DNA from: Pyronema omphalodes
Taxonomy: Eukaryota > Ascomycota > Pezizomycetes > Pezizales > Pyronemataceae
Assembly (NCBI GenBank): GCA_024516155.1
Contig: JAJJXM010000096.1
Location: 62,001-126,000, forward strand
DNA: 64,000 nucleotides
Reading direction: 5' to 3'
The translations under genes were made by a program, and so were the position numbers. Positions 884 through 34,064 of the stretch are shown one piece after another. Every line of letters begins with the position of its first letter. Position 1 is the stretch's first letter. Under the pieces are notes generated by a model. That model saw only the letters and a program-made list of their open reading frames with translations. It was not told the origin of the DNA and did no database searches.

Positions 884-889
884 CCACGG

Positions 890-1270: not shown

Positions 1271-1271
1271 A

Positions 1272-6087: not shown

Positions 6088-6107
6088 TTCACGCCGCCGC
6101 CTGCAAG

Positions 6108-11734: not shown

Positions 11735-11941
11735 CAAACAAGTAATGAGAGAACAAACAAACAAACAAACAGACGAGCCGTTGTGTTGTTGCGTCATCAT
11801 TGTGTTGTCGTTGTTGTCGTTGACATCGTGCCGTTGTCTTGCCGTGTTGTGTTGTGTTGCTGTTGTGTTGTTGTGTGTGCCGTGCCGTCGTGATTGATAG
11901 ACTGATTGATGATGGATGACGTACCATGAGCTGGAGAGCTG

Positions 11942-12731
11942 TTTTTATTTATTTATTTATTTATTAACTCATACACGCATCCAACCGTAAGGTTATGGCG
12001 GAATCTACAGTAAATACAAAATTAAGAAACCCGGGTGTTAGGCCAAGCTCTCACTGGGTATGCCCCAGAGCTTGTCGTTAGGGTGTGGGGTTGTAGACCC
12101 CCAAGTCTCGTTGTGCTTTTGTTCGTCAAGCGTCGTCTGTTCCAGGAGCCCTGTACGCTCGGAGGCCACCTCGCCGTGTCGTTCCCCCATTTCCTCCACC
12201 CTTCCCCTCCCTTTTTTAACCGTTTTTCCACCTTTATTTCCTCCACAAAGCAAAAACAAACAAGCAAAAGAAAAGAAAAGAAGATATAACTCCCCCGGGT
12301 CAACGCCCCCCCCATCGCACCTCTCTCCCCTGTGCCACTACCCTACTCTACGTCCCTCCCCTCGCCCTTCACCACGCTCCTCCCTCTCGGCTCGCCAGCC
12401 ATCCATCGTCCCACTCCGTCCACTTCTCTCCGCGTCACCATCTCGTACTCGCCTCATTCGTGCTCCTCCCGTCCGTCTCCACCGCGTCTCTCCTCTCCCT
12501 CGACTCCTCCCCTCACTTTCATTCCCGTTTCAAAAAGAAAAAACACAATACTCCATTCTCCACAACAACCACGCCTCCGCTCTCCCAGTCTCCCGTCTCC
12601 ACTCTCTCCTCGTCATCGTCCGCTTCCTCCATCTCCCCTTTCCCTCGTCTCTCTCTCCGCTCTCGCCTCCCGCTTCTCCCTCCCTCCGTCCTCCTCCTAC
12701 TCCTTTTTATTATTATTTTTTTTTTTTTTGT
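11942..12731 (-). other. LINE-C 3' UTR of C-b with poly(A), purine tract, hairpin and (AAAT)n
   Basis: Reading the minus strand: poly(A) with ATAAT just after the stop (about 12731-12708), a purine-rich 400 bp, a box AGGAAATAAAGG, then a 300-bp end nearly identical to the ends of minus-strand NORF copies N2, N4 and N5 (TCTGGGGCATACCCAGTGAG region), the hairpin TAACC-TTAC-GGTTG, and the tail. Confidence 0.85.
11982..11995 (-). other. 3' RNA hairpin TAACC-TTAC-GGTTG (LINE C-b)
   Basis: Same stem with UUAC loop near the AAAT tail. Found also in C-a (6036-6049) and on the minus strand in N2 (7162-7175), N4 (21421-21434) and N5 (22374-22387). Confidence 0.72.
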
Positions 12732-15700
12732 TTAATTATTAGAGGTAACCGCGTGTTCGTCCGTCAGGTCCAGCAGCGTCCCCCAGTCTGTTGTCAGCGT
12801 AGCAGATGTGTCCTCCTCAGCGGGGAGTTTACTTAACCTTGCGTGAGCCCACTCCGCAGTCGCTATCTTGGTCTCTGAGATCATAGCGGACAGTGCTTTG
12901 GTTCTGGCGGTGGTATGTAAGATTGTCGGTAGTGTGAGGTGTCGTCGTCGTGGGATTTTCAGTGTACGTCGCAGTTCGGTCCGTTGGGAAGTGAAGTAGG
13001 GGCACGAGAGAATGAGATGTTTGGGGGATTGCGGAGGGTGAAGGGGGCATGAGCACGAGCGGGAGGGGTATTGGGCGGTCGGGGGATGAGCAAGGCAGTC
13101 CAAAAAATAACCGTGTCCGGTTCGCAATCCCAAGATTGCGGTTGATAGTTTGCGTGGTAGGGCCGTGTAGTCATGGTCGAGGCGTCGACGGTGTGGGGCG
13201 TCGTATGTTTTAAGTTTCGGCGCGGAGGAGTACCAGGTCGTCAAGTCCTGGATGTATTGATCGTGAATCTGTCGGCGTATCCAGGACAGGGAGACCGGTG
13301 GCGAAGAGCGGGGAGTTAGGGTGGTTGCAGTTTTGGCGAGGAGGTCGGCTTGGTCATTCCCGGGTATATCGGTATGTCCTGGGACCCAATGTAAGGTGAC
13401 GGATGTGTCTTTGGAACGGAGGGAGGAGGCGATGTCGTGTATAGCGCGGGCGAGCTCTTGGCCCGGACCATATGTTGTGCGGGAGGCGCGGAGGATGGCC
13501 GCCTGGTTGTCTGTAAAGACGTGTATCCGGCGGCGTCGGAGGTGGTTGTGGGAGATGACTTTGTGGCACATCTCGAGGCAGTCGTGAATTGCTCGTAGCT
13601 CGGCGTCGAACACTTCCGTGGTCGTGCCCATGGGGATGGATTCGTTGACTTGACGGGGGAAACCTGAGGTGATGCAGTATCCGGCGCCTGTTTTTCCTTC
13701 GAGTTGGGAGCCGTCTGTATAGGCGATAATGTTGGTTTTGTCGTCGCTCAGGTCGCGGATCAGCGAGAGGTGTTCGACGGCGGCTTCGGGTTTGGGGAGG
13801 GAGGATATCTTTATTCGTAGGGGTGAGCTTATCCACGGGGTGGGATTTGGGTGTGCCGTGTCCTCGATTACGTCGTCTGGCAATATCCACTGACTGACGG
13901 AGCGGAGCATGCGAACGAGGCGCGAGGGGGCTTTCCGGGTGGTGTTCCAGGGGTAGTCATATTCGGACGGGTCACATATGGAGGTGGGGAAGTGGTTGGG
14001 CACGGGGAAGGAGGAAGGGCAGCGTCTAACTACGGGGTGGGAAGGGGGGAGGGAGAGGAGGCGGAGAACGTATTTGCGGCTGCGGCGTTGAAGGCGAACT
14101 GCGACGGGGGGTATGGCGGCTTCGTTGTGTAGGGCCACTATGGGGGTCGATGTGAATGCGTTTAGTATGCGGCGTAGGGCGGAGTTTTGTTGCGTTTGTA
14201 GTGTGTTGGCCAGTCCTTTTTGTCCATTCCACCAGATCTCAGAGCCAAAATCCGACCTAGAGGTTACACACGCTTGATAAAGTGTACGGGTCGCTGAGGG
14301 GGACAGACCTGTTTCGTGACGTACCAAACTTCGGAGGGCGTTGAGGGACCTAGCGGCGGCCGTCAGTCTTATTTTTACATGTTGGGAAAAGGAAAGTTTG
14401 CGATCAAAATGTATGCCAATCCACCGGACCACGTCCTTGCGGCCTCCTTGAGTCCCGGGGGTGACTATGGTGCCGTTCGGTAAGCGCACGTTTGTTGCTT
14501 CGCTGTGTTCATCGATTCGCGACTTATGGAAGTGCAGCATCTCCGATTTGGAATCGTCGAATGCTACCGCGTTTGTCTGCGCCCAGTTGAATGCGGTGCG
14601 AGCGGCTGCTTCCAGGGCGCGCGCATTTTGTTCTCTCGTTCGTCCATGGGCCACCAAGGCAACGTCGTCTATATAGCTAGGGGTCCACAGGGTCGGGTGT
14701 TCGGATTGTAAGGCGTCAAAGAGGGGGCGAAGGTATATGAGGAAGAGTATTGGCGACGCGGGGGATCCCTGGGGAATGCCGGTTTGAATTGGTCGCTGTG
14801 AATCTGTTCTGCCGTCAAATGATAGGGCGGTTGTGCGGTCACTTAAGAATGAGGAACACCACGATATTACCGCCTGTGGGCAGCCGAGTGAGTGCATAGT
14901 TGCCAGTAATCTGGCGGAGGAGACGTTATCGAAAGCTCCTCGTACATCTAAAAATAGGGCAGACGTCACGAAGCGATTTCCCGCGTTAACTTCTACCTCA
15001 TGCGTCAGTGCCATCGCGGCGTCAATTGCCGAGCGTTTTGGGCGCCCGCCAATCTGGTCCTTATGCAGGATGTCGTGCGACTCCGCCATAAGGCTGAGCC
15101 GGGTCGCCATGAGTTTTTCTAACACCTTGCCCAAGCAGTTGAGTAAGGCGATCGGGCGGTATGCCTTTATGGCGCTATAGTCCGGTTTGTTTGGTTTAGG
15201 TATCACCACCGTCGTGGCCTCTCGCCAGCTCCGCGGGTGATATCCTTTCGTTCCTAAGGTTGAGTACAGGGCGTTGAAAACTTTGGGGACTGCATCGTAC
15301 GCCTTCCTAAGGCACGCGAACGTGATGGAGTCCGGGCCGGGGGCTTTCTTGGGGGAGGATGTTGTGATAGCGGTACGAATTTCTTCGGGGGTGAATGTTT
15401 TCCAGGGGAGTTGGGGGTTGGGTCGTGAGGTGCGTGTGGGGGGGGCAGCTGGGGGGGGGAGGGAATAACGCTTGAAAGGCCTCTACCTTACTGTCGAAGT
15501 CGACGCATACCTTCTCCATTCCTCCTACCTGTGTCTTGATCGGTGGTGTCAATTGAGCGCGGCGCGGGTTTGTATATCGGAAGGCCGCCCATATGTCTGG
15601 TCCTTCCACCGCGGCTAAGTATTCCTTCCACATGGAGTCCTTTGCATGTCGGACTTTCCTGTAGTGGGCGTTTCGAGACTGTTTGTATTCGGCGAGGTGT

Positions 15701-16734
15701 TGGGGAAGGCGGGTCTGTTTCCATCTCCTGCTGGCCCGGGTCATGTCTTTACGTGTCAGGCGTACCTCCTCCGTCCACCATCTCTTCGACCGCGGGGTTG
15801 GGGTGAGGGTAGGTGTTGATATCGCGGCGGCGGTTTGGATAGAGTCGCGAAGGAGGGCAGCCCATTCGTCGAGGTTCTCGGCGGAGGGGTTGGCTCGGAG
15901 GTGGGACCACCGGGGGTAGGAAGCTTCGGTGAGACGTTGCAATTCTTCGGTGAAGGTCTCCCAGTCCGTCTTGCGCCAGTTTAGTCGTGTAGTGTCGCCG
16001 GCGGTGTTGTGGTGGTCTGGGTGTAAGGAGTTGATTTGGAAACGGATCACCTCGTGGTCCGATCCCGTGGCAATGCCGTCGTCAATGGCCCAAGAAGAAA
16101 TTTCCCTTGCCATCGCCGGGGCTGCCAGAGTCAGGTCGAGGACCGAAGAGCCCGATCCGTCTCGATAGTGGTAAGTAGGAACGTCCGGGACGTTTACCAG
16201 TTGCCAGTGATGGTCTTCCATCAGTTCCACCAGCACGTCTGCTCTCGCTGGTCTGCGTGCGTGGGAGTTCCACAGAGGGTGATGGGCATTGAGGTCCCCT
16301 GTGATCACGCAACGGTGGGGGAGAGTGAGGGGGGTAAGGGAGCGGGGGACGGTATATAATTTTGTTTGGGGGTCTTTTTCATTATAGATATTTAAGAGGT
16401 AAAAGGAGGGAATGAGTGTGGTGCTGACCTCGAGTACCTGGAGGTCAGGATCTCCGCTGACGTCCGGTCTTGGTGTGACTCGAACATGTGGGTTGAGGCG
16501 AGAGATATATGCAGCAGTGCGATTGACTTTGTGGTGGCTGCGGGGGGGAAGTAACAAAAGGAAATCTGGATGTGTGATTGCGTACCGGGGATCTTTAACG
16601 TTAATCTCTTGTACCAGCAATATGTCTATTTTGGATCCTGCTGAGTTCAGCAGTGTTGTTAGTGCGGTGGCGCTGCGATTCGTGTTATGTGACACGATGC
16701 GGAGGGTCGCCGCTGATGAGTCGTATCTATTCAT
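12732..16734 (-). pseudogene. LINE-C ORF2: endonuclease, RT, RNase H, C-terminal CCHC; one frameshift
   Basis: It starts MNRYDSSAATLRIVSHNTNR at 16734. The endonuclease has LVQEINV, ITGDLNAHHPLW, SSVLDLTLA and GSDHEV. A frameshift falls in the proline/poly-C hinge between endonuclease and RT (about 15445-15470). From there the RT frame runs to 12732 with IPKPNKPDYS, LDVRGAFDNVS, GIPQGSPASP and YIDDVALV. RNase H follows with AYTDGSQ, DAELRAI, FTDNQAAI and WVPGHTDIPGND. The C-terminus has a Cys-rich CSCPLHPP ... HLILSC motif typical of Tad1/I-like LINEs. It is about 1330 codons. All catalytic residues are present; a single homopolymer slip separates it from an open frame. Confidence 0.92.
16727..16734 (-). 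promoter_or_regulatory. 8-nt ORF1 stop/ORF2 start overlap ATGAATAG
   Basis: The ORF2 ATG lies just inside the end of ORF1 and the ORF1 TAG closes the octamer. LINE-B copies have ATGTCTAA and ATGTATAA in the same position. This arrangement suggests ORF2 is translated by termination-reinitiation. Confidence 0.8.
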
Positions 16735-18636
16735 CAGTGGTCATGGTGGTGTCGGCGATGGGGTTTATTTCGGCGGGGATGGCGTCTAGGGGTGTTGTCT
16801 CCGGGCGAGTCTTCTGCCAGGCTTCCCTGACGACGTTCACTTTGACGGGGCAGCGGGTGCTGTATGCGGCGTGGTGGACGTCTGTGAGGCCAGCGGCGAC
16901 ACAATTGGCACACTTGTAGAGGGTGTGTTGACATTTGCGGCCCTGGATTGTGGGACACTGGCCGCATTGGTGATATTCGGTGGGGTGGGGGGCGGCGCAT
17001 ATCGCGCAAGCGGGGCCATTGTCAGCTGGGCAGATTGCGTGATGATGTCCAAATTTCTGGCACCTGCGGCATTGCTCAATGGAACGGGCGGTGAAGAATT
17101 CTGTCACCTTGCGTTGTTCGAATAATACTGTCACCTTTGTTCTCTTGAGGAGGTTGTATTCCTCGCTGGACTTCAGTGCGATCATCACACTGGAGGCGGT
17201 CTTACCAACGCGCTTGTCCGGGTGAGAGATGTACCTTGGGGGTTGTGTCAGGCGTACTTTGTGGTTCGTCTCGATTTCTTGCTGCAATTTTTGCATACCC
17301 TCGGCGGTGTCCTCGTAGTAGTCCGTGGGGATTCCGTGGACTGCCAGCTTATACCATTTTTCGTTAAGTCGGGGGGGCAAGAGGTTCGGGTGGACTGTGC
17401 AGGCAGCGGCGTGGATAACAGAGAGGTGGGGGGTGAGATCGGTAATGGATGTGTTCGGGGAGGGGGTAAGCATGAGGCTTCCTGCCATATTTTTCCTAAC
17501 CGTCATGATGTTTCCTTCCACCTTCGCCTTGTGTAGGGCTTCGTTGATAGCTAATCCAATGGCGATCTTAGAGCTATCGGGCAGGGCACGGGGGTCAGGC
17601 CAGGGGATCACAATGTCTTGGACGTGGGGGGGGTGCTTGCGTTGGGGGTTGGGTTTGGTGGTCTTAGGGGGGGTCTTTGATGGGGCAGCGGCTTTCTCTT
17701 TGAACAACTTGGTTGCCGCGGGTATTGGTCCTTGCCACGGTTCGTTCGCCTGGGGTGGGGGAGGGGGTAGGTGAGGGGGAGGAGTGAGCTCGTTCTTCCG
17801 GAGTTCAGCTTCGGCGTTCAAGCACCTCTGCTTCCAGTACTGGGCTTCGCTGAGGCGGGGGGCATGTTTGGAGGGTAAATCGAGAGGGGCGTTAACGGGC
17901 TGGGTATCGGGGCTGGTGGTCTCGAGGGGGGTGGGGGATGCGGAGACGGGGGTGGGGGACACGGCGGCAGCTGTTCCTTTCGGTAGGAGGACGGGGCGAG
18001 GAGTTGGACGGCGTCGTAGATGGATTGGAGGAGGGACTGGTTCTTGTTGATTGTCTTGAACGCTTTGTTGATTCTGTCGTTCGTTGTCTGGTCGGCGTGA
18101 CGAAACATGTCCGCGGTGGTAGCAAGATTGTGGTGGAGGACGTCGATGGATTGAGCGAGGTCGGCGTTGCTGGGAGGTGTGGCGTTAATCGGAGCGGTGT
18201 CGGGGTGGAGTCGTTGGACTAGTGCAGGAACGGGGGTGGAGTCTTCGGCGATATGGGTGATAGTATGGGCAGTGGAGGCGGCGGGGTGTTTTTTCTGTTT
18301 TCCGGTGGTTTGTTGGATGGAGTATTTAGGGTCATTGTTGCTCAGTTGATCGGGGGTGTCGGAGTTTTCAGGGAGGGGTTTTTTGTTGTGGGGTGTTTTG
18401 GGTGGGGCGTTGGTGGTGTTGCGAGAAGTTGGCGTTGGGGAGCTGTCTCGGGGAGACGCGTCGTCGTCGCTGGAATCCTCGCTGACGTCAGAGCACGTGT
18501 CTACGTGCATCTCAACGTCGGACGCGTCGGACTCGTGCGGCTCTGCGTTAGCGCGTTTTTCTTTCGCGAGCGCTCGAGGGGGCGCTTTGTCGGGGGGGAG
18601 GGGCTGTTTCTCAACAGCGGAGGATCGGGTGGGCAT
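16727..18636 (-). pseudogene. LINE-C ORF1 (nucleic-acid-binding protein), one frameshift
   Basis: It starts MPTRSSAVEKQPLPPDKAPP at 18636. The N-terminal third is Ser/Asp-rich and low complexity, followed by a helical segment (NADLAQSIDVLHHNLATT). A frameshift near 17965-18000 moves into the frame that carries a Pro-rich linker, YWKQRCLNAEAEL, the conserved globular region around LNEKWYKLAVHGIPTDYYED, KVTEFFTAR, and three Cys/His clusters starting CRRCQKFGHHHAIC (CX2CX4HX4C). It ends TMTTDE, with TAG at 16729-16727. About 635 codons over both frames. Its role is RNA binding and assembly of the retrotransposition particle, by analogy with LINE ORF1/gag-like proteins. Confidence 0.88.
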
Positions 18637-19296
18637 CGGAAGTTCGGAATAAGTTGATTGTGCGGTAGCGACAAGGAATCCGCGATTGAAATGATGGTTG
18701 TTGATGTGGGTGGAGGGTGGTGTTGATGGAACCGGTTCGCGGGGCTTTTCTCAGGGGCCCGAAAACTCTTTTTCGATGAAAACTCAACGGAAAAGAGAGG
18801 GCCTGATCTGGAAATGCTGCGAATAGGTAATTCGGGGCTGCCGAACAATAATCCGCGATAAAATCTTGCGATTTCGGCGTGGTTGTTGAAAAGGCAGGGG
18901 GGGGTCGCTCTTTTTCAAGGCCGACAAGAAACGCGCGACGGAGCTGGAGAGCTGTGGCGTCGCAGGTGAATTGATGGAGAACGGAAGCTTTCATGTAGCG
19001 ATGTTGGATGACGGCCCAGCAAGACTGCTGGCCGCCCCTTTGTACATAAGGAGGCTTGCCTCCCCGTTGTCGAGTTCTCCATCGAACGTCTTGTGTCTTT
19101 CCCTTGCTCTTAATAAAGACTTCTCCTTCCAGTCCCACGTCATTCTTGTCCTTGTCCCTGTCCCTGTTTCGTGTGCCGTCCGTCTGACGAGCACTTCGGT
19201 CCTTGTCTTCCCGTTCCCCGTCCTGTTACCCGCCTAGTCCCTCTTGCCGGTAGTGTTCAGTGTGCTCTTTGAACGTCCGTTCCTAGTTCCCTGACA

Positions 19297-20097
19297 TTAC
19301 GTTCGATCGAATAATTATTCAACCAACACGCATGAACCCCACCGGTTCTGCTTGGACCTACGCCTTAAAACAAGCCCTGGAAACGCACACCCTAAACGAA
19401 ACCTTTGGGATTTCCGACCGATTCGCTGGCGCAGTGCGAAGAACCATCCGAAGAGCAGAAAATCACTGCTACCTTGTGGTCCGCTGGGAACTCCAGGACT
19501 ACACTTACCAGGAGCACGTCCGCAACACCATCAGACTCAAGCCAATCCTCCGAGCCCGCCAGAATGCACGTTAAACTTATCGACGAAGGACACTGGCAGC
19601 AAATTATGAACGCTGCCTCCATGACCCAGTTCCCTGACGGCCATGAACCGCTTACTTTCACCAAATAACTCGCGCGATCCATCATAGACGCCCAAGACCA
19701 CCCCACGGGCTATCTCTTAAACGACCTCGCGGAAACCCCCGGCTCCCGTAACAGCACCCGGGTCTCCAGCCCTGTCGCCTCCCGCGCTCCGGAAGCTCCA
19801 ACCCCTGCCCCCATTCCCCCTGTAGTTATCCAGACTGGCTCCGTCCAGGTTTATCCAAATCGCCCAGAAACAGTGCCGCGAACCGCCGCACCCCCTACCA
19901 CAGCCGCAGCCGCAGCCCCCGCCCCCGCTATAATCGCACCAATTCCAAGACCCCCCCCCCCGAGACTCCGAAATCCTCCTAACCCCGGAGGAACAAGCGG
20001 ATACGAATGAAACTCACTACTACGAGAAGGAGCGCACCCGCCAGCGTGAACTCATCAACGCGCGACTCGCCTCCCCTGGCATCCGCGTGACCGGAAC
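19297..20097 (+). pseudogene. LTR2 retrotransposon internal region, gag-like remnant of unknown family
   Basis: It directly follows the LTR2 3' end. An ATG at 19332 opens a frame of 80 codons (MNPTGSAWTYALKQALETHT ... NHCYLVVRWELQDYTY), followed in another frame by LIDEGHWQQIMNAASMTQF, an in-frame stop, a Pro/Ala/Thr-rich stretch and an acidic segment (ILLTPEEQADTNETHYYEKE). The position and composition fit the N-terminal part of a gag gene, but I do not recognise the family and no protease, integrase or RT is present. It is cut off at about 20098 by NORF N3. Confidence 0.45.
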
Positions 20098-21382
20098 CTC
20101 ACGAAATGTCGCCAAAACAACGACAGAACAACGCCAGACGATCGAAACGGTCCGAAAACGCGTACAATGTTCTAGCCGACCTTCCTCATGATGGATCTAA
20201 TCCTACATTTGATGAAAGAGATGGAAAAGTTGATGAAGTTGTTGGAAACATCGCTGAAAAGCTCTTCCAGAGCGTGGTCTTGGCAAGATCACCAGTTCCT
20301 TCGGCTTCAACAAAGCAGCAACAGGCGACAACTGAGCATAGCCGGCTCAGTAACTACCGTCGCATAATGGTATCTGCAATTAAAGAGGCAGTTGCAGTTG
20401 ACGACAACTATGCCACCCTAGATCAACTGTTTATAGACAACTACGCCGAATTCACTGGAGCCAGCTTCCTGGGGATACAACAGATCCACCAGGACACACA
20501 GCGACGCTTCAATACCCTCGATGACACCATACGCAACAACAGCGATGAGATGCGCCACAGATTCGACGTCATGATGACGAACTTCGCCATTCTGACCGGC
20601 GAAAACACGAAGCTGCGCGCAGCATACGACTCTACACAGGCAGAAACAGCAGCTCTCAAGGCTGCTGTGGACGCCCTGACGAAGAAAATCGACGAACAGC
20701 AACAAGTCAGTTCGGCGCCCCCCTCACCGAACCTTACGGCCTCTTCCTCAGCGTTGGAAGAGATGACTATGCAACTGTCCGTCGTCCAACATGACATTCA
20801 GGATGTCCTAGACGCTGTTCGCAACCCTCCTGGCAAGAGAAAGCGAAGGGGAAGCGACCAGAACACCGAACCCACCTCACCGACAAACAGAAGACCGGTG
20901 AACCACAAACCGAGAACGGCATCACCGGTGCGAAGCCTGATGCACTCGAAACATGCGACTACCGCCGCCCAGGACAAGCTTGATGCCCTCAAGCCTATGT
21001 CCCCCCTACCTCTCCTCGCGATCACGTCAACCGATGCGACACCGGAACCTCACCCTGACAGTTCATCTGCTCAGGACACACCTCTACCCGACGCCCCAAG
21101 CACTGCCCCTGCTGAGACGAACGGATGGAAGACTGTGGAGGCGAAGGCTACACAGAGGAAGAAGCAGAAAGCGAAGGAGACGACGCCTACGGCAGCGCCA
21201 CCCAGCAAGACCCCTACAACAAAGAATGGTGGACGGGGAAAGAATACCCACCAACCCAGAACGACAACCTCCTCTGCAAAGAAGACTTGGGCAGAAGTCG
21301 TCAAGAGCGGAGGCATCAACGTCCAGATTGTGCTTGGGAATGGCAATCTTGGACTTACGACACCACCGACAAGAAGGGGAGA
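20098..21382 (+). mobile_element. NORF fragment N3 (5'- and 3'-truncated)
   Basis: It begins at CCTCACGAAATG just before the NORF start codon, with no NORF 5' UTR, and ends in the Arg/Gly-rich 3' coding part at AAGAAGGGGAGA where the tail of N4 begins. The part from 20259 to the end is repeated on the other side of N4 (N6, 25347-26470) as a direct repeat of about 1.1 kb. Confidence 0.85.
20106..21382 (+). pseudogene. NORF protein (type m2), nearly complete, 3'-interrupted
   Basis: It starts MSPKQRQNNARRSKRSENAY and is open for 425 codons through module m2 (IMVSAIKEAVAVDDNYATLD), coiled coil, KRKRRGSDQN and KTWAEVVKSGGINVQIVLGN, until the AAAT tail of N4 replaces the last 55 or so codons. It shares NPTFDERDGKVDEVVGNIAE with N1, so N1 and N3 are close relatives, yet it differs from N6 at several codons (IQQ versus IQP, TIRNN versus TICNN). 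Confidence 0.8.
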
Positions 21383-22336
21383 TTTATTTATTTATTTATT
21401 TATTAACTCATACACGCATCCAACCGTAAGGTTATGGCGGAATCTACAGTAAATACAAAATTAAGAAACCCGGGTGTCAGGCCAGGCTCTCACTGGGTAT
21501 GCCCCAGAGCTTGTCGTTAGGGTGTGGGGTTGTAGACCCCCAAGTCTCGTTGTGCTTTTTGTTCGTCAAGCGCCGTCTGTTCCAGGAGCCCTGTACGCTC
21601 GGAGGCCACCTCGCCGGGTCGTTCCCCCATTTCCTCCACCCTTCCCCTCCCATTTTTAACCATTTTTCCGCCTTTATTTCCCCCACAAAGCAAAAACAAA
21701 ACCAAAGCAAAGTTAAACAGCCGCCGGGCCACCTACGCCCCCACTCTCCTCCCCCCTCTCAACTCCTCCGCCGGTGTCTCCTGACTCTTTGCCCTTTGAA
21801 ACACCCGGGCCCGCCCTGCCCCTCTTCTCCTCCCCTCTCTCCCCTTCTCCCTCCTTCTTCCTCAGCCTTCTCGCTGCCCCGCCCCGCCTCTCTCCCCTTC
21901 TTGTCGGTGGTGTTGTAAGTCCAAGATTGCCATTCCCAAGCACAATCTGGACGTTGATGCCTCCGCTCTTGACGACTTCTGCCCAAGTCTTCTTTGCGGA
22001 GGGGGTTGTCTGTCTGGGTTGGTGGGTATTCTTTCCCCTTCCACCATTCTTCGTTGTAGGGGTCTTGCTGGGTGTCGCTGCCGTAGGTCTCGTCTCCTGC
22101 GCTTTCATCTTTTTCTTCTGCGTAGCCTTCGCCTCCACAGTCTTCCATCCGTTCGTCTCAGCAGGGGCAGTGCTTGGGGCGTCGGGTAGAGGTGTGTCCT
22201 GAGCAGATGAACTGTCAGGGTGAGGTTCCGGTGTCGCATCGGATGACGTGATCGCGAGGAGAGGTAGGGGGGACATAGGCTTGAGGGCATCAAGCTTGTC
22301 CTGGGCGGCGGTAGTCGCATGTTTTGAGTGCATCAG

Positions 22337-24316
22337 TTATTTATTTATTTATTTATTAACTCATACACGCATCCAACCGTAAGGTTATGGCGGAATCTAC
22401 AGTAAATACAAAATTAAGAAACCCGGGTGTCAGGCCAGGCTCTCACTGGGTATGCCCCAGAGCTTGTCGTTAGGGTGTGGGGTTGTAGACCCCCAAGTCT
22501 CGCTGTGCTTTTGTTCGTCAAGCGTCGTCTGTTCCAGGAGCCCTGTACGCTCGGAGGCCACCTCGCCGGGTCGTTCCCCCATTTCCTCCACCCTTCCCCT
22601 CCCTTTTTTAACCATTTTTCCGCCTTTATTTCCTCCACAAAGCAAAAACAAAACCAAAGCAAAGTTAAACAGCCGCCGGGCCACCTACGCCCCCACTCTC
22701 CTCTCCTCTCTCAACTCCTCCGCTGGTGTCTTCTGACTCTTTGCCCTTTGAGACACCCGGGCCAGCCCTGCCCCTCTTCTCCTCCCCTCTCTCCCCTTCT
22801 CCCTCCTTCTTCCTCAGCCTTCTCGCTGCCCCGCCTCGCCTCTCTCCCCTTCTTGTCGGTGGTGTTGTCAGTCCAAGATTGCCATTCCCAAGCACAATCT
22901 GGACGTTGATGCCTCCGCTCTTGACGACTTCTGCCCAAGTCTTCTTTGCAGAGGAGGTTGTCGTTCTGGGTTGGTGGGTATTCTTTCCCCGGCCACCATT
23001 CTTTGTTGTAGGGGTCTTGCTGGGTGGCGCTGCCGTAGGTGTCGTCTCCTTTGCTTTCTGCTTCTTCCTCTGTGTAGCCTTCGCCTCCACGGTCTTCCAT
23101 CCATTCGTCTCAGCAGGGGCAGTGCTTGGGGCGTCGGGTAGAGGTGTGTCCTGAGCAGATGAACTGTCAGGGTGAGGTTCCGGTGTCGCATCGGATGACG
23201 TGATCGCGAGGAGAGGTAGGGGGGACATAGGCTTGAGGGCATCAAGCTTGTCCTGGGCGGCGGTAGTCGCATGTTTTGAGTGCATCAGGCTTCGCACCGG
23301 TGATGCCGTTCTCGGTTTGTGGTTCACCGGTCGTCTGTTTGTCGGTGAGGTGGGTTCGGTGTTCTGGTCGCTTCCCCTTCGCTTTCTCTTGCCAGGAGGG
23401 TTGCGAACAGCGTCCAGGACATCCTGAATGTCATGTTGGACGACAGAGAGCTGCATAGTCATCTCTTCCATCGCTGAGGAAGAGGCCGTGAGGTTCGGTG
23501 AGGGGGGAGCCGAAATGACTTGTTGCTGTTCGTCGATTTTCTTCGTCAGGGCGGCCACAGCAGCCTTGAGAGCTGCTGTTTCGCCCTGTGTAGAGTCGTA
23601 TGCTGCGCGCAGCTTCGCATTTTCGCCGTGCAGGTCGTTGAGTTTCGCCAGAACGGCGTCAAGCCTGTCGTTGATGTGGTCGCTTATGTCGCACATCTTC
23701 TCTTCGACTGTGTCGAAGCGGCGGTGAGTCTCTCTGTTGTCCTGGTTCACACCTAACAACGTGAGGGCACTGATCCGGGAGTGGTTCGCTGCCAATGATC
23801 TGTCCAGGCGCGCTTCATCGCGTGCTCCATATTCTTCAAGGATGAACTTGATCATTTCATGGCGCCAGATATACAGCGATCGGGTAGTTGTGTCTTGTTG
23901 CTGGTCTGTTGAAGCCGAAGGAACTGGTGATCCTGCCAAGACCACGTTCTGGAGGGGTTCTCCAGCACTGTTTCCATCAACTTCATCAACTATTCCATCT
24001 CTTCCATCAAAAGTAGGCTTAGATCCATCATGAGGAAGGTCGGCTAGAACATTGTACGCGTTTTCGGACCGTTTCGATCGTTGGGCGTTGTTCTGTCGTT
24101 GTTTTGGCGACATTTCGTGAGGTGGGGTAAGCCAAAACTCGTGAAAACTCTGATTTTGCGACAAAAGTCAACAAAAACAACGTAGAATTCCCTGAAAATT
24201 CAGAGAATAACGTAACAGAGTGCTGCGAATACGAATCCGATGAGAAAACCGGGGGTTTCGGTGCTCGTTGTTGAGAATGCAGGGGGGGGGGTCGCCGTTG
24301 CCGTGTGGTGTTCGCT
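22337..24316 (-). mobile_element. NORF element N5, complete, minus strand, (AAAT)n tail
   Basis: It has a 15-bp TSD in N4. The 5' end is CACCACACGGCAACGGCGA plus a C run (about 24285-24312), followed by leader, one ORF, the GGAAATAAAGG box (about 22626-22636), hairpin 22374-22387 and tail 22337-22356. About 1.98 kb. This is the best complete type-m1 NORF. Confidence 0.93.
22665..24113 (-). CDS. NORF protein, complete (type m1), about 482 aa
   Basis: It starts MSPKQRQNNAQRSKRSENAY at 24113 and ends GGPAAV before TAA at 22665. Order: basic N-terminus, acidic linker ending NVVLAGSPVPSAST, m1 module, coiled coil, KRKRRGSDQN, Pro/Ser/Thr linker, KTWAEVVKSGGINVQIVLGN, Arg/Gly/Glu-rich tail. The N-terminal half is nearly identical to the frame at 7453-8901, while the C-terminal version (QRKKQKAKETTPTAAPPSKT) differs from it, marking a recombination point. 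I recognise no catalytic domain. It is probably an RNA-binding protein acting in cis on its own RNA, by analogy with LINE ORF1. Confidence 0.78.
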   Translation of the reverse strand: MSPKQRQNNAQRSKRSENAYNVLADLPHDGSKPTFDGRDGIVDEVDGNSAGEPLQNVVLAGSPVPSASTDQQQDTTTRSLYIWRHEMIKFILEEYGARDEARLDRSLAANHSRISALTLLGVNQDNRETHRRFDTVEEKMCDISDHINDRLDAVLAKLNDLHGENAKLRAAYDSTQGETAALKAAVAALTKKIDEQQQVISAPPSPNLTASSSAMEEMTMQLSVVQHDIQDVLDAVRNPPGKRKRRGSDQNTEPTSPTNRRPVNHKPRTASPVRSLMHSKHATTAAQDKLDALKPMSPLPLLAITSSDATPEPHPDSSSAQDTPLPDAPSTAPAETNGWKTVEAKATQRKKQKAKETTPTAAPPSKTPTTKNGGRGKNTHQPRTTTSSAKKTWAEVVKSGGINVQIVLGNGNLGLTTPPTRRGERRGGAARRLRKKEGEGERGEEKRGRAGPGVSKGKESEDTSGGVERGEESGGVGGPAAV

Positions 24317-25346
24317 TTTTGAGTGCATCAGGCTTTGCACCGGTGATGCCGTTCTCGGTTTGTGGTTCACCGGTCGTCTGTTTGTCGGTGAGGTGGGTTC
24401 GGTGTTCTGGTCGCTTCCCCTTCGCTTTCTCTTGCCAGGAGGGTTGCGAACAGCGTCCAGGACATCCTGAATGTCATGTTGGACGACGGAGAGCTGCATA
24501 GTCATCTCTTCCATCGCTGAGGAAGAGGCCGTGAGGTTCGGTGAGGGGGGAGCCGAAATGACTTGTTGCTGTTCGTCGATTTTCTTCGTCAGGGCGGCCA
24601 CAGCAGCCTTGAGAGCTGCTGTTTCTCCCTGTGTAGAGTCGTATGCTGCGCGCAGCTTCGCATTTTCGCCGTGCAGGTCGTTGAGTTTCGCCAGAACGGC
24701 GTCAAGCCTGTCGTTGATGTGGTCGCTGATGTCGCACATCTTCTCTTCGACTGTGTCGAAGCGGCGGTGAGTCTGTCTGTTGTCCTGGTTCACACCTAAC
24801 AACGTGAGGGCACTGATCCGTGAGTGGTTCGCTGCCAATGATCTGTCCAGGCATGCTTCATCGCGTGCTCCATATTCTTCAAGGATGAACTTGATCATTT
24901 CATGGCGCCAGATATACAGCGATCGGGTAGTTGTGTCTTGTAGCTGGTCTGTTGAAGCCGAAGGAACTGGTGATCCTGCCAAGACCACGTTCTGGAGGGG
25001 TTCTCCAGCACTGTTTCCATCAACTTCATCAACTTTTCCATCTCTTCCATCGAAAGTAGGAGTAGATCCATCATGAGGAAGGTCGGCTAGAACATTGTAC
25101 GCGTTTTCGGACCGTTTCGATCGTCGGGCGTTGTTCTGTCGTTGTTTTGGCGACATTTCGTGAGGTGGGGTAAGCCAAAACTCGTGAAAACTCTGATTTT
25201 GCGACAAAAGTCAACAAAAACAACGTAGAATTCCCTGAAAATTCAGAGAATAACGTAATAGAGTGCTGCGAATCCGAATCCGATGAGAAAACCGGGGGTT
25301 TCGGTGCTCGTTGTTGAGAATGCAGGGGGGGGTCGCCGTTTTGGGC

Positions 25347-26990
25347 GCTCTTCCAGAGCGTGGTCTTGGCAAGATCACCAGTTCCTTCGGCTTCAACAAA
25401 GCAGCAACAGGCGACAACTGAGCACAGCCGGTTCAGTAACTACCGTCGCATAATGGTATCTGCAATTAAAGAGGCAGTCGCAGTTGACGACAACTATGCC
25501 ACCCTAGATCAACTGTTTATAGACAACTACGCCGAATTCACTGGAGCCAGCTTCCTGGGGATACAACCGATCCACCAGGACACACAGCGACGCTTCAATA
25601 CCCTCGATGACACCATATGCAACAACAGCGATGAGATGCGCCACAGATTCGACGTCATGATGACAAACTTCGCCATTCTGACCCGCGAAAACACGAAGCT
25701 GCGCGCAGCATACGACTCTACACAGGCAGAAACAGCAGCTCTCAAGGCTGCTGTGGACGCCCTGACGAAGAAAATCGACGAACAGCAACAAGTCATTTCG
25801 GCGCCCCCCTCACCGAACCTCACGGCCTCTTCCTCAGCGATGGAAGAGATGACTATGCAACTGTCCGTCGTCCAACATGACATTCAGGATGTCCTGGACG
25901 CTGTTCGCAACCCTCCTGGCAAGAGAAAGCGAAGGGGTAGCGACCAGAACACCGAACCCACCTCACCGACAAACAGAAGACCGGTGAACAACAAACCGAG
26001 AGTGGCATCACCGGTGCGAAGCCTGATGCACTGGAAACATGCGACTACCGCCGCCCAGGACGAGCTTGATGCTCTCAAGCCTATGTCCCCCCTACCTCTC
26101 CTCGCGATCACGTCGACCAAAGCGACACCGGAACCTCACCCTGACAGTTCATCTGTTCAGGACACACCTCTACCCGACGCCCCAAGCACTGCCCCTGCTG
26201 AGTCGAACGGATGGAAGACTGTGGAGGCGAAGGCTACACAGAGGAAGAAGCAGAAAGCGAACGAGACGACACCTACGGCAGCGCCACCCAGCAAGACCCC
26301 TACAACAAAGAATGGTGGCAGGGGAAAGAATACCCACCAACCCAGAACGACAACCTCCTCTGCAAAGAAGACTTGGGCAGAAAGTCGTCAAGAGCGGAGG
26401 CATCAACGTCTAGATTGTGCTTGGGAATGGCAATCTTGGACTTACGACACCACCGACAAGAAGGGGAGAGAGGCGAGGGGCGAGCAGCGAGAAGGCTGAG
26501 GAAGAAGGAAGAAGAAGGGGAGAGAGGGGAGGAGAAGAGGGGCAGGGCGGGCCCGGGTGTCTCAAGGGCAAAGAGTCAGGAGGACACCGGCGGAGGAGGG
26601 GAGAGAGGAGAGGAGAATGGGGGCACGGGTGGCCGGCGGCCGTTTAACTTTGCTTTGGTTTTGTTTTTGCTTTGTGGAGGAAATAAAGGCGGAAAAATTG
26701 TTAAAAATGGGAGGGGAAGGGTGGGAGGAAGGGAGGAGCCCGGCGAGGCCGCCTCTGTGGCAAGCAGGGAACGGGGAACACAGCAGACGCGCTTGGACAA
26801 GAAACCCCCCGTAGTAACAGTGGGGACAGACCCCACGACAATGCAGCGCAGGGAGGAGGAATAGGGCAGAGGGGGAGACAGGGGTTTTTGCTTTTGCGTT
26901 TCCTTTTCTTTCTTTCTTTGTATTTATCTTTCTCTTGTCATAACCTTCGGGTTGCAAATAAGTAATGAATAAACAGACAAACAAAGAAAC
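25347..26990 (+). mobile_element. NORF fragment N6, 3' part, (CAAA)n-type tail, many small indels
   Basis: It resumes at GCTCTTCCAGAGC exactly as N1 does at 10136 and is nearly identical to N1 to about 26380. After that several 1-nt indels appear (for example GCAGAAAGTCG), and from about 26836 the 3' end switches to the version seen in N10 and N13. Hairpin TAACC-TTCG-GGTTG at 26941-26954, then a degenerate ACAAAC tail. Confidence 0.82.
25360..26499 (+). pseudogene. NORF protein C-terminal part (type m2), frameshifted
   Basis: Open from VVLARSPVPSASTKQQQATT through m2, coiled coil, KRKRRGSDQN and the linker to KKTWAE. Then an extra A near 26382 shifts the frame and further indels follow. There is no start codon at the 5' side because N4 lies upstream. 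Confidence 0.78.
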
Positions 26991-26993
26991 CAA

Positions 26994-27162
26994 CGAACAA
27001 GCAACGGCGACCCCCCCCCCCCCCTGCATTCTCAACAACGAGCACCGAAACCCCCGGTTTTCTCATCAGATACGGATTCGCAGCACTCTGTTACGTTATG
27101 CTCTGAATTTTCAGGGAATTCTACGTTGTTTTTGTGTACTCTTGGCGCAAAATCAGAGTTTC
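26994..27162 (+). mobile_element. NORF 5'-end fragment N7
   Basis: It contains the NORF 5' terminus (GCAACGGCGA, C run of about 13, TGCATTCTCAACAAC) and the conserved leader (TTTCAGGGAATTCTACGTTG) and stops just before the ORF at CAAAATCAGAGTTT. Joined to Ty3 integrase sequence. Confidence 0.8.
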
Positions 27163-28649: not shown

Positions 28650-30891
28650 TAACCGGTTCAGAGACTTTCGCCGCGATCTGTTTACTGCTATGCGGGACGC
28701 TATCGAAAAAGACGACAACGATAGCAGCTTGAGCGCCCTATTCTGTGAACATGAACCGCTTTTCACAGGAGCAAGCTTCCTGGGGATACAACAGATCCAC
28801 CGGGACACACAGCGACGCTTCAATACCCTCGACGACACCATACGCAACAACAGCGGTGAGATGCGCCACAGATTTGACGTCATGATGAGGAAATTCAACA
28901 TTCTGCTCGGCGAAAACAGGAAGCTGCGCGCAGCATACGACTCTACACAGGCAGAAACAGCAGCTCTCAAGGCTGCTGTGGACGCCCTGACGAAGAAAAT
29001 TGACGAACAGCAACAAGTCATTTCGGCACCCCCCTCACCGAACCTCACAGCCTCTTCCTCAGCGATGGAAGAGATGACTATGCAACTGTCCGTCGTCCAA
29101 CATGATATTCAGGATGTCCTGGATGCTGTTCGCAACCCTCCTGGCAAGAGAAAGCGAAGGGGAAGCGACCAGAACACCGAACCCACCTCACCGACAGACA
29201 GAAGACCGGTGAACCACAAACCCACAGCGGCATCACCGGTGCGAAGCCTGATGCACTCGAAACATGCGACTACCGCCGTCCAGGACAAGCTTGATGCCCT
29301 CAAGCCTATGTCCCCCCTACCTCTCCTCGCAATCACGTCGACCGAAGCGACACCGGAACCTCACCCTGTGTTAGGTACGCCACGCAGATATCGATATCTG
29401 AGGTAGGCGACACACCAAGGTTCGTCTGTTCTTTCGTCGGTACCTATCAAGGTAGGCAGGCTGTCTTCTTTGTAGCGTGGCCGGTTGGGGGGGAGAAGTG
29501 ATAGGTGGCGATGGAAGGGGTTAGGGTTGGGGGCTCTGGGTTTTCCGTGATCTCGTTCAGCACACGGACAGACAATCTTTGAGTGGTCAAGGTAAGTTGG
29601 GGTGAAAGGTAATTGATTGCGTGAAGACTAAATACAGCGTTCCTCCCCTCTCCTTTATATATCCATTAATGTCCTCCTTTTCCTCGTAACCCGAGGGGCT
29701 CATGCCCGGCAGTCCGACCCCCGGAGCTTCACATAATTCCCGTAAGTCATCACGCCCCTTTGTTTCCCATGCTAACTAACTAACTAATAATAATGATTAC
29801 AAACATATATCTGATCAATAATTGCGTATCCTTTTTCTGGTTTCTTCCTATTTCTCCTCGCCTTCCGAAACGCGCGCCGCGCTTTCCTGATCCTACGCGA
29901 GCTCTCGCGCAGCTCCGTATTCGATCCACCTTCGCGCGTCACCTTCCCGACGCTCCCTCCTCCGCTCCTTGCCGAAACTTCTTCCATCTCTTTTTCCCAG
30001 CTCGGCTGAGCTCCACCGAGCTCCACCGAGCTCCACCGAGTTCCACCGAGCTGTGTTACCTTCCTCGCCGTATCCTCCGGGGCTCCCCATAGCTCACCAA
30101 AGCTGTACCGAAGCTTCGCCGAGCTCCGTCCTGCTTCATCTCGCTTTCCTTCGTCCCACCTCGTTCCACCACTTCCCCGACGACCTTCTTGTTCCTTTTT
30201 CCTCCTTGACCCCGCGACCGTCGTGTTCCTTTCTCCTCCTTGTCCCCCGTAGTCTTCTTGTTCCTTTGCTATTCTCGTCGTCCCGTGGTAGCCAAGTACC
30301 ACACTGTGACCGTGATTCCCAACGCCCATGCGATTGCTGACGCAACCATAGCTCCTATCAACATGTCATCGTTGATTCTTGACACCCTGACAGTTCACCT
30401 GCTCAGGACACACCTCTACCCAACGCCCCAAGCACTGCCCCTGCTGAGACCAACGGATGAAAGACTGTGGAGGCGAAGGCTACACAGAGGAAGAAGCAGA
30501 GAGCGAAGAAGACGACACCTACGGCAGCGACACATAGCAAGACTCCTACAACAAAGAATGGTGGAAGGGGAAAGAACACCCACCGACCCAGACGGACAAC
30601 CCCTCCGCAAAGAAGACTTGGGCAGAGGTCGTCGAGAGCGGAGGCATCAATGTCCAGATTGTGCTGGGCAATGGCAATCTTGGACTTCCAACACCACCGA
30701 CAAGAAAGGGGGAGAGGCGAGGCGGGGCAGCGAGAAGGCTGATGAAGAAGGGAGGAGAAGGGGAGAGAGGGGAGGAGAAGAGGGGCAGGGCGGGCCCGGG
30801 TGTCTCAAAGGGCAAAGAGTCAGAAGACGCCAGCAGAGGAGTTGAGAGAGGAGAGGAGAGTGGGGGCATGGGTGGCCTGGCGGCTGTTTGA
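28650..30891 (+). pseudogene. NORF protein of N10 (type m3), truncated and interrupted
   Basis: The first part (28650-29368) starts in module m3 (AMRDAIEKDDNDSSLSALFC) and covers the coiled coil, KRKRRGSDQN and linker. After the LTR the frame resumes at 30385, has a TGG to TGA stop at the conserved NGWKTVEAK motif (about 30459) and further frame changes. It ends near 30891 with the usual GLAAV-type terminus. Confidence 0.78.
29369..30384 (-). repeat. solo Ty3 LTR, minus orientation (about 1.02 kb)
   Basis: On the minus strand it runs from TGTCATTG ... on the plus-strand right side inverted, to ...TACCTAACA; that is, it has TG/CA ends matching the T-c LTR (59493-60503). It is flanked by the 5-bp TSD CCCTG (29364-29368 and 30385-30389). 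TATA-like TATATAAAGG is on the minus strand near 29652-29662, a perfect palindrome CAGATATCGATATCTG near 29385-29401, and a 10-bp GAGCTCGGTG repeat block near 30000-30050. Formed by LTR-LTR recombination after insertion into N10. Confidence 0.93.
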
Positions 30892-32715: not shown

Positions 32716-33163
32716 GCGGAGGTTATCTTTTTTTTTCTTTTCTTTTCTTTTCTTTTCTTTTCTTTTCTTTTCTTTTCTTTTCTTTTCTTTTCTTTTCTTT
32801 TCTTTTCTTTTCTTTTCTTTCTTTTCTTTTTCTTTTCTTTTCTTTTCTTTTGTTCGTGGAGGAAATAAAGGCGGGAAAAACGGCTAAAAACATGGGAGGG
32901 GAAGGGTGGAGGAAAGAGAGGACACCCGGCGCGGTGGCCTCTGTGCGAACAGGGCACTGGAACAGCAGACGCGGTTGGACAACAAGACCAACGAAGTAAT
33001 AGTGGGGACAGGACCACAAAATCACAGCCTAAGGGAGGATCAGCGGAGGTAGAGACGGGACTTTGTTTTGGTTTTTGCTTTTGACTTTCCATGTACTATA
33101 AACCTGTACCCTCGTCATAACCAATAAGGTTGCATACGAGTAATGAATAAACAAACAAACAAA
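32716..33163 (+). mobile_element. LINE-B 3' UTR fragment with expanded TTTTC microsatellite
   Basis: It corresponds to 41993-42329 of B-a from GGAGGTTATC to the CAAA tail. TSD CAGGGAAGAAAGA (32703-32715 and 33164-33176). Hairpin TAACC-AATAA-GGTTG at 33118-33132. The TTTTTCTTTTTG of B-a has become about 120 bp of TTTTC repeats here. Confidence 0.9.
32726..32851. repeat. (TTTTC)n microsatellite, about 23 units
   Basis: A nearly pure pentanucleotide run within the LINE-B fragment, with one interruption near 32820-32830. Confidence 0.97.
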
Positions 33164-33656: not shown

Positions 33657-34064
33657 TTTTGCGACAACAACAACAATTTCCCCGATTTTCGAATCGGCAA
33701 TCGATCTCTTACCTCGGAATTACCCCTAATCTTGATTTTCGGAACCCAGCTACCGTTTACCGTTGAGATTCAGCGGAAAAAAAACGCGATTCTGGGATCT
33801 CCGGGCGGATTCCGGGCTCTTTCATCAACGCCGCTCCACCACCCGCCCTCCAATCATCAAACCGACCTTATTTTCGGTTTCGGCATACCGAAATCCCCCC
33901 CCCCCCCCCCCAAATCCCCCCCCCCACCAGCAGCACTGGTTGTGGTGATACCCCAAATTTCCCCCCCTCCGGACCCCTTTCCTCGCGAGAAATTTTCGTC
34001 CTCGCTTAGCAAGAGCCTCCTCACGTGACTCTTCGCCATCGCTTACCTCACCACCGGTTAAGCG
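33657..34064 (+). other. LINE-B 5' UTR of B-a
   Basis: It contains TTTACCGTTGAGATTCAGCG and ACGCGATTCTGGGA blocks shared with B-b and B-c, and C runs near 33895-33925. It should contain the internal promoter expected of a LINE, but no promoter motif can be named. Confidence 0.6.

Follow-up and report, generated by a model that had tools for sequence, protein, structure and literature searches.

HAL1 (half-L1) elements of mammals are moved by L1 in trans, and SINEs that carry LINE tails are not known to encode a protein. Published accounts derive HAL1 from L1 and credit it with ORF1p only, reverse transcriptase (RT) being absent (PMC5753468). HeT-A, found with TART and TAHRE at Drosophila telomeres, is presented as a Gag-only non-LTR element whose Pol is supplied from elsewhere (PMC5537684). 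Among SINEs, the CORE-SINEs are tabulated with LINE tails whose source varies from species to species (PMC3747384). In the fungus Magnaporthe, the MINE and WEIRD-MGL chimeras have 10-20 bp direct repeats and were ascribed to a template switch in LINE reverse transcription; WEIRD is described as non-coding, and for the 33 WEIRD-MGL chimeras 28 sites are given, of which six occur in two elements each (PMC2104539). Eg-R1 and its relatives in Blumeria are reported as abundant non-autonomous retroelements, thought to be transcribed by Pol II, whose members have a similar 5' region (PMC6022598). Finally, MarorLINE-6 of Marasmius oreades produces active LINE-like insertions without an RT, and the RT of MarorLINE-5 was suggested as the source (PMC9674265).

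The window, a 64,000-nucleotide stretch of Pyronema omphalodes DNA, contains many copies of an element that we call NORF. Several LINEs probably copy this protein-coding, RT-less retroposon in trans, and it has probably gained LINE tails repeatedly. Its architecture, about 2.0 kb in all, consists of a common 5' end, one frame of about 485 codons, a 3' module and a microsatellite tail. Self-comparison of the window yielded, besides three complete copies each close to 2 kb in length (35056-37043, 50938-52920 and 53098-55093), more than 12 other pieces; these lie on both strands, and some belong to one interrupted copy. The first-pass annotation had proposed a multi-copy family with this common anatomy, and the comparison confirms it. 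The 486-codon frame that had been reported at 53295-54755 is indeed open.

The copies differ in their tails and in what they have entered. The plus-strand copy at 35056-37043 sits in the ORF1 of a LINE-B, ends in a LINE-C type tail (T1a) and is flanked by a 14-bp target site duplication (TSD), CTGCTACCACCACC, at 35040-35053 and 37043-37056. The plus-strand copy at 50938-52920 has a LINE-B type tail (T1b) and a 14-bp TSD, GACGCAAAATGGAA, at 50886-50899 and 52918-52931; the 45 nt at 50900-50944, between the TSD and NORF, contain 37 nt that are identical to LINE-B ORF2 in the sense orientation. The plus-strand copy at 53098-55093, which holds the 486-codon frame, has a LINE-D type tail (T1c) and a TSD of 12-13 bp, CGAAGCCTTCCAG, at 53073-53085 and about 55101-55113. 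A complete minus-strand copy with a LINE-A type tail (T2) lies at 22340-24312 (frame 22665-24167) inside another NORF copy, with a 15-bp TSD, CTGATGCACTCAAAA. The perfect or near-perfect TSDs that the first-pass annotation gave for five copies were thus borne out for these four. No TSD was found for a second minus-strand T2 copy, at 7128-9100, which belongs to a 4.7-kb duplication whose other member, 22340-26996, matches it at 98%. The region 20098-25346 is a nest of NORFs: a plus-strand copy at 20096-21382, its 3' end broken by minus-strand NORF copies, is followed on the minus strand by 21387-22336, 22340-24312 and 24317-25340. The last of these is the 5' part of a copy split by the 22340-24312 insertion, and its remainder is probably 21387-22336. 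A further plus-strand copy, at 57972-59492, is cut in its 3' part by another repeat.

Scoring covered no fewer than 146 places with NORF-1 and 18 rows with NORF-2. In a scan of 160 nt of upstream sequence with trimmed tails, TSDs of 10-17 bp flanked 21 of 30 complete AAC-tailed copies from the window and the genome loci and were missing in the other nine; among mismatched pairings, only 5 of 870 gave 10 bp or more. A shorter scan of 45 nt upstream gave 20 of 30, including a microsatellite match that drops out of the 160-nt count. Among T2 copies with the leader in reach (7141 and 22353 in the window, and loci L065 and L024), a TSD was found in only one of four. Variable-length TSDs together with a 3' microsatellite tail are the features of a non-LTR retroposon inserted by target-primed reverse transcription (TPRT).

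None of the 30 complete copies, followed from the leader through the frame and the 3' module to the microsatellite, continues into an ORF2 or RT, and the length from leader to tail is nearly always about 1.95 kb. This agrees with the earlier suggestion that the missing RT is not an effect of truncation, and it runs against the prospect, raised at the same time, that most copies might continue into an ORF2. Copies interrupted on the 3' side (e.g. L032, L033, L034, L041 and L046) are uninformative on this point. NORF is therefore not an autonomous LINE: the frame holds no RT domain and the complete copies have no room for one. It shares with HAL1-like half-LINEs the absence of ORF2 from complete copies. 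A search of the window against Rfam returned no known RNA family.

One NORF body carries four kinds of last ~200 nt, and each kind matches the 3' terminus of a separate LINE with an RT in this genome. Like a SINE, NORF thus shares its 3' tail with a partner LINE, here in four versions with four LINEs. Identity to the LINE consensus was 98.1-100% for T1a and LINE-C (21 copies), 95.8-99.5% for T1b and LINE-B (13 copies) and 97.6-99.5% for T2 and LINE-A (13 copies), 47 copies in total, as compared to 45-74% for mismatched combinations among these three LINEs (18 aligned ends). Dropped beforehand were three T2 rows that had diverged (78-81%), a single duplicate among the T1b rows and, for T1a, 16 of 37 rows, which were duplicated, incomplete or outside the sample. 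The T1c tail was assigned to LINE-D from one sequenced locus (L069), to which four of six copies are 93-95% identical and the other two only 84-89%. At the coding end, NORFs are 90-98% identical to each other and 47-51% identical to any LINE (18 aligned ends); because of the former value, we rejected a division into two elements, one with T1 and the other with T2 tails. Identical body types occur with different tails and the tail kinds are spread over the body types, in a set of rows that repeats some places (e.g. L013, L017 and the window).

The partner LINEs are themselves resident. A minus-strand LINE-A copy at 11944-18913 has an ORF1 at 16727-18184, with the frame broken upstream, and an ORF2 at 12732-15482 with RVT_1 and RNase_H domains; its 3'UTR ends in a T2 tail at 11944. 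A plus-strand relative at 880-6088, its start cut within ORF1, has at the end of its 3'UTR a T2 tail that has diverged (79% identity to T2). The plus-strand LINE-B copy split by NORF 35056-37043 spans 33720-42330, and its 3'UTR (41657-42330) ends in a T1b tail. An ORF2 lies upstream of the tail at four of four LINE-B loci (one being the window copy), at four LINE-C loci and, by coordinates, in LINE-D. LINE-A ORF2 is stop-free in 41 of 50 scored copies; many open RT frames were found for LINE-A and LINE-C, and the scored LINE-B frames are mostly short. We also considered that NORF might be the ORF1 part of LINE-C, the owner of the commonest tail. This was rejected on one locus, L070, where the end of the LINE-C ORF1 is of LINE-B type.

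The termini of NORF also resemble those of LINEs. Its 5' terminal ~50 nt are similar to the 5' ends of resident LINEs, and a 5' motif, ACACCACACRGCAAC...CCCCCCCCCTGCATTYTCAACAAC in most copies (53098-53140, plus strand), also occurs at the 5' ends of LINE-A and LINE-B. Neither this resemblance nor the variation among 3' modules had been described in the first-pass annotation. At the 3' end, a terminal hairpin of two stems (55037-55065, plus strand) is present in all four tail kinds, a conserved stem-loop like that of stringent-type LINE/SINE pairs. In 19 distinct rows 96.3% of its cells are paired, as compared to at most 39.4% in slid versions, and 14 cells show a double change against 5.7 in shuffles; two of the five pair-count measures (pairs with a double change and further pair types) do not exceed shuffles. 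Since the hairpin is common to all tails, each LINE may accept every tail, and a tail match need not mean specificity.

The junctions between body and tail are concentrated in short stretches common to the NORF body and the LINE. When a single best change point was fitted, 36 of 47 junctions fell within all or part of a purine-rich block of 27 nt (T1b 7/13, T2 10/13, T1a 19/21) and 11 fell elsewhere; a second such stretch is CAGGGCACTGGAACA. T1b tails show four distinct crossing points from a T1a-like body, in 5, 2, 2 and 4 copies. The T2 junctions are less clean, with 4-7 exceptions in 132 sites, and those of T1c have 6-7 exceptions. From this distribution we infer that the tails were probably acquired by template switching. 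A LINE RT would start on its own RNA, copy the terminal ~150-240 nt and then jump onto NORF RNA at a matching stretch, thereby giving NORF a new tail. The chimera could afterwards be used by the LINE that donated the tail, and multiply.

The NORF frame is under selection. Between the NORF-1 and NORF-2 lineages dS is about 1, yet both frames are open, with 0 stops as compared to 7.8 expected (500 simulations, minimum 1). The first-pass annotation had named dN/dS near 1 across copies as a refutation, and this is not what the lineages show: the ratio is roughly 0.2 for the coiled coil, 0.26-0.33 for the basic linker and 0.59-0.97 for a variable domain. Pooled pairwise dN/dS at dS above 0.02 is 0.44-0.72. 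Pairs with dS below 0.4 give 0.58-1.16, and the value of 1.16 for the 13 youngest pairs is as expected of drift after insertion. The frame is stop-free in 90 of 98 scored places; copies retrieved by the protein search are biased toward open frames. In the variable domain, dS is 0.5-1.7 as compared to 0.04-0.16 in the flanks (RDF, SNY and IWR types), and judged by this pattern the domain looks as if it had been swapped as a cassette between NORF lineages.

The encoded protein is predicted to form a long coiled-coil-like helix followed by a basic, mostly disordered C-terminal half, with helices at residues 78-99 and 104-206 (53526-53912, plus strand). The AlphaFold model has a mean pLDDT of 50 and exceeds 90 only around residues 140-200. 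Pfam returned only sub-threshold matches and no recognised RNA-binding domain, and a PDB profile search gave no credible relative. Comparison with LINE-A and LINE-B ORF1 profiles produced no match, in a weak test with shallow alignments (Neff 1.7 and 2.0). The protein may nevertheless have an ORF1-like role, most likely packaging NORF RNA as ORF1p does for L1, in which case only endonuclease and RT would be borrowed.

One alternative is that NORF is a half-LINE in the manner of HAL1, consisting of the ORF1 and 3' end left after a LINE had lost its ORF2, and mobilised by its parent. Both ends of NORF are LINE-like, the single and mostly open frame has a predicted coiled coil, and the described HAL1, encoding only ORF1p, is a precedent (PMC5753468). 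We find this origin doubtful, however: apart from the missing match to the LINE-A and LINE-B ORF1s, the LINE-C ORF1 end is of LINE-B type, a NORF-like ORF1 was seen in none of the LINEs read (a set that excludes the LINE-D ORF1 and most LINEs of the genome), and one parent alone does not explain four tails. Another is that the tails changed hands at the DNA level, through gene conversion or unequal recombination between copies within the nested repeat islands. NORFs and LINEs are densely nested in the same islands, the junctions fall in stretches of common sequence, and a 4.7-kb segment is duplicated at 98%; on the other hand, the common stretches, measured from one informative site to the next, are short at 8-27 nt, and a TSD surrounds the whole chimera in complete T1a and T1b copies and in one T1c, and therefore the chimeras moved as units once formed. 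Exchange between DNA copies is thus possible but rather improbable, and template switching is the explanation that we prefer.

Two further possibilities concern the protein. It could be a passenger, a recently captured frame that is not needed by an element in which only the RNA ends matter. The dN/dS values of close pairs and of the variable domain would fit, but the constraint on coil and linker, the frames still open at dS of about 1 and the amplification of NORF-1 and NORF-2, both with open frames, make this unlikely. Alternatively, the protein could act on the LINEs as helper or inhibitor, making NORF a regulatory satellite and more than a parasite. An arms race could give the cassette-like exchange of the variable domain; however, the tail kinds are spread over body types and there is therefore no clear pairing of domain with LINE. 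We regard this as improbable too. We therefore retain the reading of NORF as a coding retroposon served by several LINEs. The view of the first-pass annotation, a parasite of co-resident LINEs, holds in that NORF is coding, lacks RT, inserts in the LINE manner with TSDs and carries the 3' ends of resident LINEs; it needs to be widened from one LINE family to at least four.

Set beside the described systems, NORF resembles HAL1 as a LINE-type, RT-less element with one ORF (PMC5753468), but the HAL1 ORF is L1 ORF1p while that of NORF matches none of the resident LINE ORF1s compared, and four LINEs are the source of the NORF tails. HeT-A adds to chromosome ends, where nicking is thought unneeded, and the passages describing it mention no tail swapping (PMC5537684); NORF, in contrast, enters other repeats with TSDs and has swapped tails. 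SINEs with LINE tails, especially CORE-SINEs, likewise take their 3' end from a LINE, but those of the CORE-SINE type are described with tRNA promoters (PMC3747384) and SINEs are short and non-coding, whereas NORF is 2 kb long, has a frame of about 485 codons under selection and has four tails in one genome. MINE and WEIRD-MGL are, like NORF, fungal chimeras with direct repeats (PMC2104539); unlike in their published description, NORF junctions are common to many copies and the chimeras amplify as families. The Eg-R1 peptide has 74 aa, as compared to the conserved 485-codon frame of NORF, and the passages on Eg-R1 name no partner LINE (PMC6022598). For MarorLINE-6 the description reports no protein domain and suggests a single partner (PMC9674265), unlike NORF.

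We see about an even chance that NORF stands for a kind of retroparasite intermediate between SINEs and half-LINEs, with an unrelated RNA-packaging protein of its own and a 3' end repeatedly switched to that of an active LINE, at least four LINE families being exploited. At the protein level, tail switching would have its counterpart in the passing of the fast-evolving cassette from one NORF lineage to another. The sharing of tails between SINEs and LINEs is one of the main indications from nature of how LINE enzymes select their RNA. NORF, with one coding body, four natural tails and mapped, repeated exchanges, amounts to a ready-made swap experiment, and at least two of its partner LINEs retain many open RT frames. 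Its tails allow a test of whether RT recognizes the variable ~200 nt or the common hairpin alone, and its frame allows a test of whether a parasite-made protein replaces ORF1p. The four tails suggest that NORF borrows the machinery of several LINE families, not one, and tail switching suggests a way for a parasite to persist when one of its host LINEs declines.

Most of the window consists of nested retroelements. By self-comparison we found three complete NORF copies of ~2 kb (35056-37043, 50938-52920, and 53098-55093) and more than 12 other pieces, in agreement with the first-pass annotation, which had described many copies and fragments here. The 486-codon frame at 53295-54755 is open as described, and the span 20098-25346 does contain NORF sequence, in the form of copies nested one inside another. 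A ~1.0-kb repeat of no named family (29369-30388 and 59489-60503, opposite strands, 95% identical) adjoins or splits two NORF copies and has internal 10-bp tandem units; it may be another mobile element. A 4.7-kb segment present at 7128-11776 and 22340-26996 (98% identity) is a recent segmental duplication within the repeat island, and a partial Ty3/Gypsy-like element (60502-63954) was recognized by eye from translations with a gag zinc knuckle and RT frames.

When the whole genome (60.8 Mb, 232 contigs; window at G000:C229:62001-126000) was searched at the protein level, 98 NORF places were scored among 887 candidates, and the matched stretch was stop-free in 90 of them. L004:3289-4455 proved to be a diverged relative with ~50% identity to the window protein. 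When it was used as the query, 106 rows were scored: 18, two of which are possibly a single copy, were 95-100% identical to it with no stops and form a second family, NORF-2, and the remaining 88 (49-53%) were NORF-1, the family of the window copies. With both searches pooled, NORF-1 occupies at least 146 distinct places on 53 contigs; all these counts are lower bounds, and selection by protein score biases them toward open frames.

The lack of reverse transcriptase had been proposed not to result from truncation. This held: in each of 30 complete copies with an AAC-type tail, the leader is followed by the frame and then by the tail, nearly always within ~1.95 kb, and none of the 30 goes on into an ORF2. 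Where the 3' end is interrupted, as for instance in 5 of one 30-locus set, a copy is uninformative on this point. Twenty-one of the 30 complete copies then reach a TSD of 10-17 bp, as compared to 5 of 870 mismatched end pairings that reached 10 bp or more. For T2-tailed copies the test is thin (n = 4 with the leader in reach), with a TSD in one (22340-24312, 15 bp). Between the TSD and the first conserved NORF base lie 2-49 extra nucleotides. At the 50938 copy these (50900-50944) include 37 nt matching LINE-B ORF2 in the sense direction, 37/37 to L011, and at another locus (L019, 2981-3003, minus strand) 20 extra nt are identical to a piece of LINE-B ORF1, also in the sense direction. In both cases the extra nucleotides could have arisen by template jumping at the 5' end, or they could be flank brought from a source locus.

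We aligned 18 3' ends, 10 from NORF and 8 from LINEs of the same genome. At the end of the coding region, NORFs were 90-98% identical to one another, and their identity to any LINE was 47-51%. Grouping by the distal ~207 nt of these 18 ends was different: tail T2 paired with LINE-A (98-100%), T1b with LINE-B (96-98%), and T1a with LINE-C (93-95%), while mismatched combinations of A, B, and C gave 45-74%; a LINE-A relative at 880-6088 was 79% identical to T2. Against group consensus sequences over about the last 180 nt, identity was 97.6-99.5% for T2 and LINE-A (13 copies), 95.8-99.5% for T1b and LINE-B (13 copies), and 98.1-100% for T1a and LINE-C (21 copies). A fourth kind, T1c, ends the window copy 53098-55093. 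On contig C167 (locus L069) a T1c tail lies, by coordinates, ~630 nt past a LINE RNase H end; this owner is named LINE-D. Of six T1c NORF tails, four share 93-95% identity with the L069 tail and two share 84-89%, as compared to 83-84% for T1a and LINE-C tails.

The LINE-A 3'UTR (12731-11944, minus strand) ends in the T2 tail, the LINE-B 3'UTR directly follows the ORF2 RNase H end in 4 of 4 loci (L009, the window copy, to L012), and T1a lies downstream of a LINE 3'UTR and ORF2 end in L027, L028, L058, and L063, where the ORF2 ends are 59-62% identical to LINE-A ORF2. LINE-A is recent: its ORF2 was scored at 50 places from 1556 candidates, 41 stop-free and most 97-98% identical, many with an open ORF1 upstream. 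LINE-C has many 1308-codon frames, and LINE-B has 30 rows at 93-100%, mostly in shorter frames. The LINE-C ORF1 end, seen at one locus (L070), belongs with LINE-B (74 and 65% identical) and is unlike NORF. Within a LINE-B type 3' module, a (TCTTT)n expansion at 32726-32851 apparently grew out of a short pyrimidine run.

By NORF body type, RDF carried T1a in 14 rows, T1b in 8, T1c in 4, and T2 in 1; SNY carried T1a in 15, T1b in 2, T1c in 2, and T2 in 4; and IWR carried T2 in 2. No tail lay within reach in 27 rows, and some rows duplicate one place.

Junctions were mapped in 13 of 14 T1b rows, 13 of 16 T2 rows, and a sample of 21 of 37 T1a rows, leaving out duplicates and three diverged T2 rows. 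At sites that differ between body and LINE, each copy fits a single body-to-LINE change, with 0-2 exceptions for T1b (54 sites), 0-2 for T1a (94 sites), and 4-7 for T2 (132 sites). The purine-rich stretch AATGGGAGGGGAAGGGAGGAGGAAAG, whole or in part, holds the best-fit change in 36 of 47 copies (7/13 T1b, 10/13 T2, and 19/21 T1a), some extending a few bases beyond; the other changes adjoin it or lie upstream (2 T2) or downstream (4 T1b). Against the T1a body, the T1b crossings fall at four points, AATGGGAGGGGAAGGGT (5 copies), AGGAGGAAAGA (2), GGAGGACA (2), and GCAGGGCACTGGAACAG (4), and 0-4 of 106 sites are exceptions; against the T2 body, AATGGGAGGGGAAGGGAGGAGGAAAG fits 13 of 13 with 3-7 exceptions in 135 sites. 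T1c copies fit worse (6-7 exceptions), and for three of the six the crossing lies in GGCACTGGAACAA or a variant of it. As crossing points are common to several copies, each tail gain was then multiplied along with the body, and the T1b pattern indicates that LINE-B tails were probably acquired on several occasions, with two preferred stretches.

The tails end in the same two-stem hairpin. Across 19 distinct sequences 96.3% of cells were paired, as compared to at most 39.4% in slid versions, and cells changed on both sides numbered 14 against 5.7 in shuffles. In the same sequences, pairs with a double change (2 against 1.8) and further pair types (6 against 7.0) showed no excess over shuffles. 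The inner stem is almost invariant, and the outer stem covaries between LINE families, although in the LINE-A kind one outer pair is disrupted. Over its first ~50 nt NORF also resembles LINE 5' ends: its first 70 nt were identical at 43/64 and 37/58 positions to two LINE-A copies and at 46-48/68 to LINE-B, and the following 60 nt were unlike LINEs (24-29/~60).

Pairwise dN/dS, pooled over 429 codons, was 0.58-0.72 at dS 0.02-0.4, 0.63 at 0.4-0.8, and 0.44 above 0.8. Between NORF-1 and NORF-2 (dS ~1) there were no stops across 387 codons, whereas 500 simulations with the same changes at random positions gave a mean of 7.8 and a minimum of 1. The frame is under selection. The constraint sought in the first-pass annotation was evident between the families in the coil (residues 171-245, 0.19-0.23) and linker (246-429, 0.26-0.33), values for the N-terminus were 0.38-0.60, and those for the variable part (71-170) were 0.59-0.97; constraint was not evident in the 13 youngest pairs (1.16), as expected if most recent changes post-date insertion. 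In the variable domain dS is 0.5-1.7 among the RDF, SNY, and IWR types and merely 0.04-0.16 in the flanks, as if it were swapped between lineages like a cassette.

AlphaFold predicted a single long helix (residues 104-206), with pLDDT <50 for most other residues and a mean of 50; a pI of 11.3 was computed for residues 246-486. No Pfam family scored above cut-off for the protein, and profile comparison with the LINE-A and LINE-B ORF1s, from alignments that were both shallow, gave no match.

A proposed origin of the Magnaporthe MINE chimeras is template switching in a fungal LINE (PMC2104539). For NORF, a LINE reverse transcriptase would begin on its own RNA, stall at such a shared stretch, and transfer to NORF RNA; the chimeric product would then be usable by that LINE. 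The least supported step is that the NORF protein may act as an RNA-packaging partner.

NORF combines a protein-coding body with four LINE ends; its junctions lie at short shared stretches, it inserts with TSDs, and its frame is under selection. We know of no other coding element with tails of different LINEs, and our literature search, in papers mostly outside subscription journals, showed none; such silence, from papers alone, is weak evidence for novelty. For CORE-SINEs, the LINE that supplies the tail is listed as differing between species (PMC3747384). HAL1 (PMC5753468) and HeT-A (PMC5537684) are coding and RT-less, each having one partner system. NORF is best classed as a non-autonomous parasite of LINEs, a class already known.
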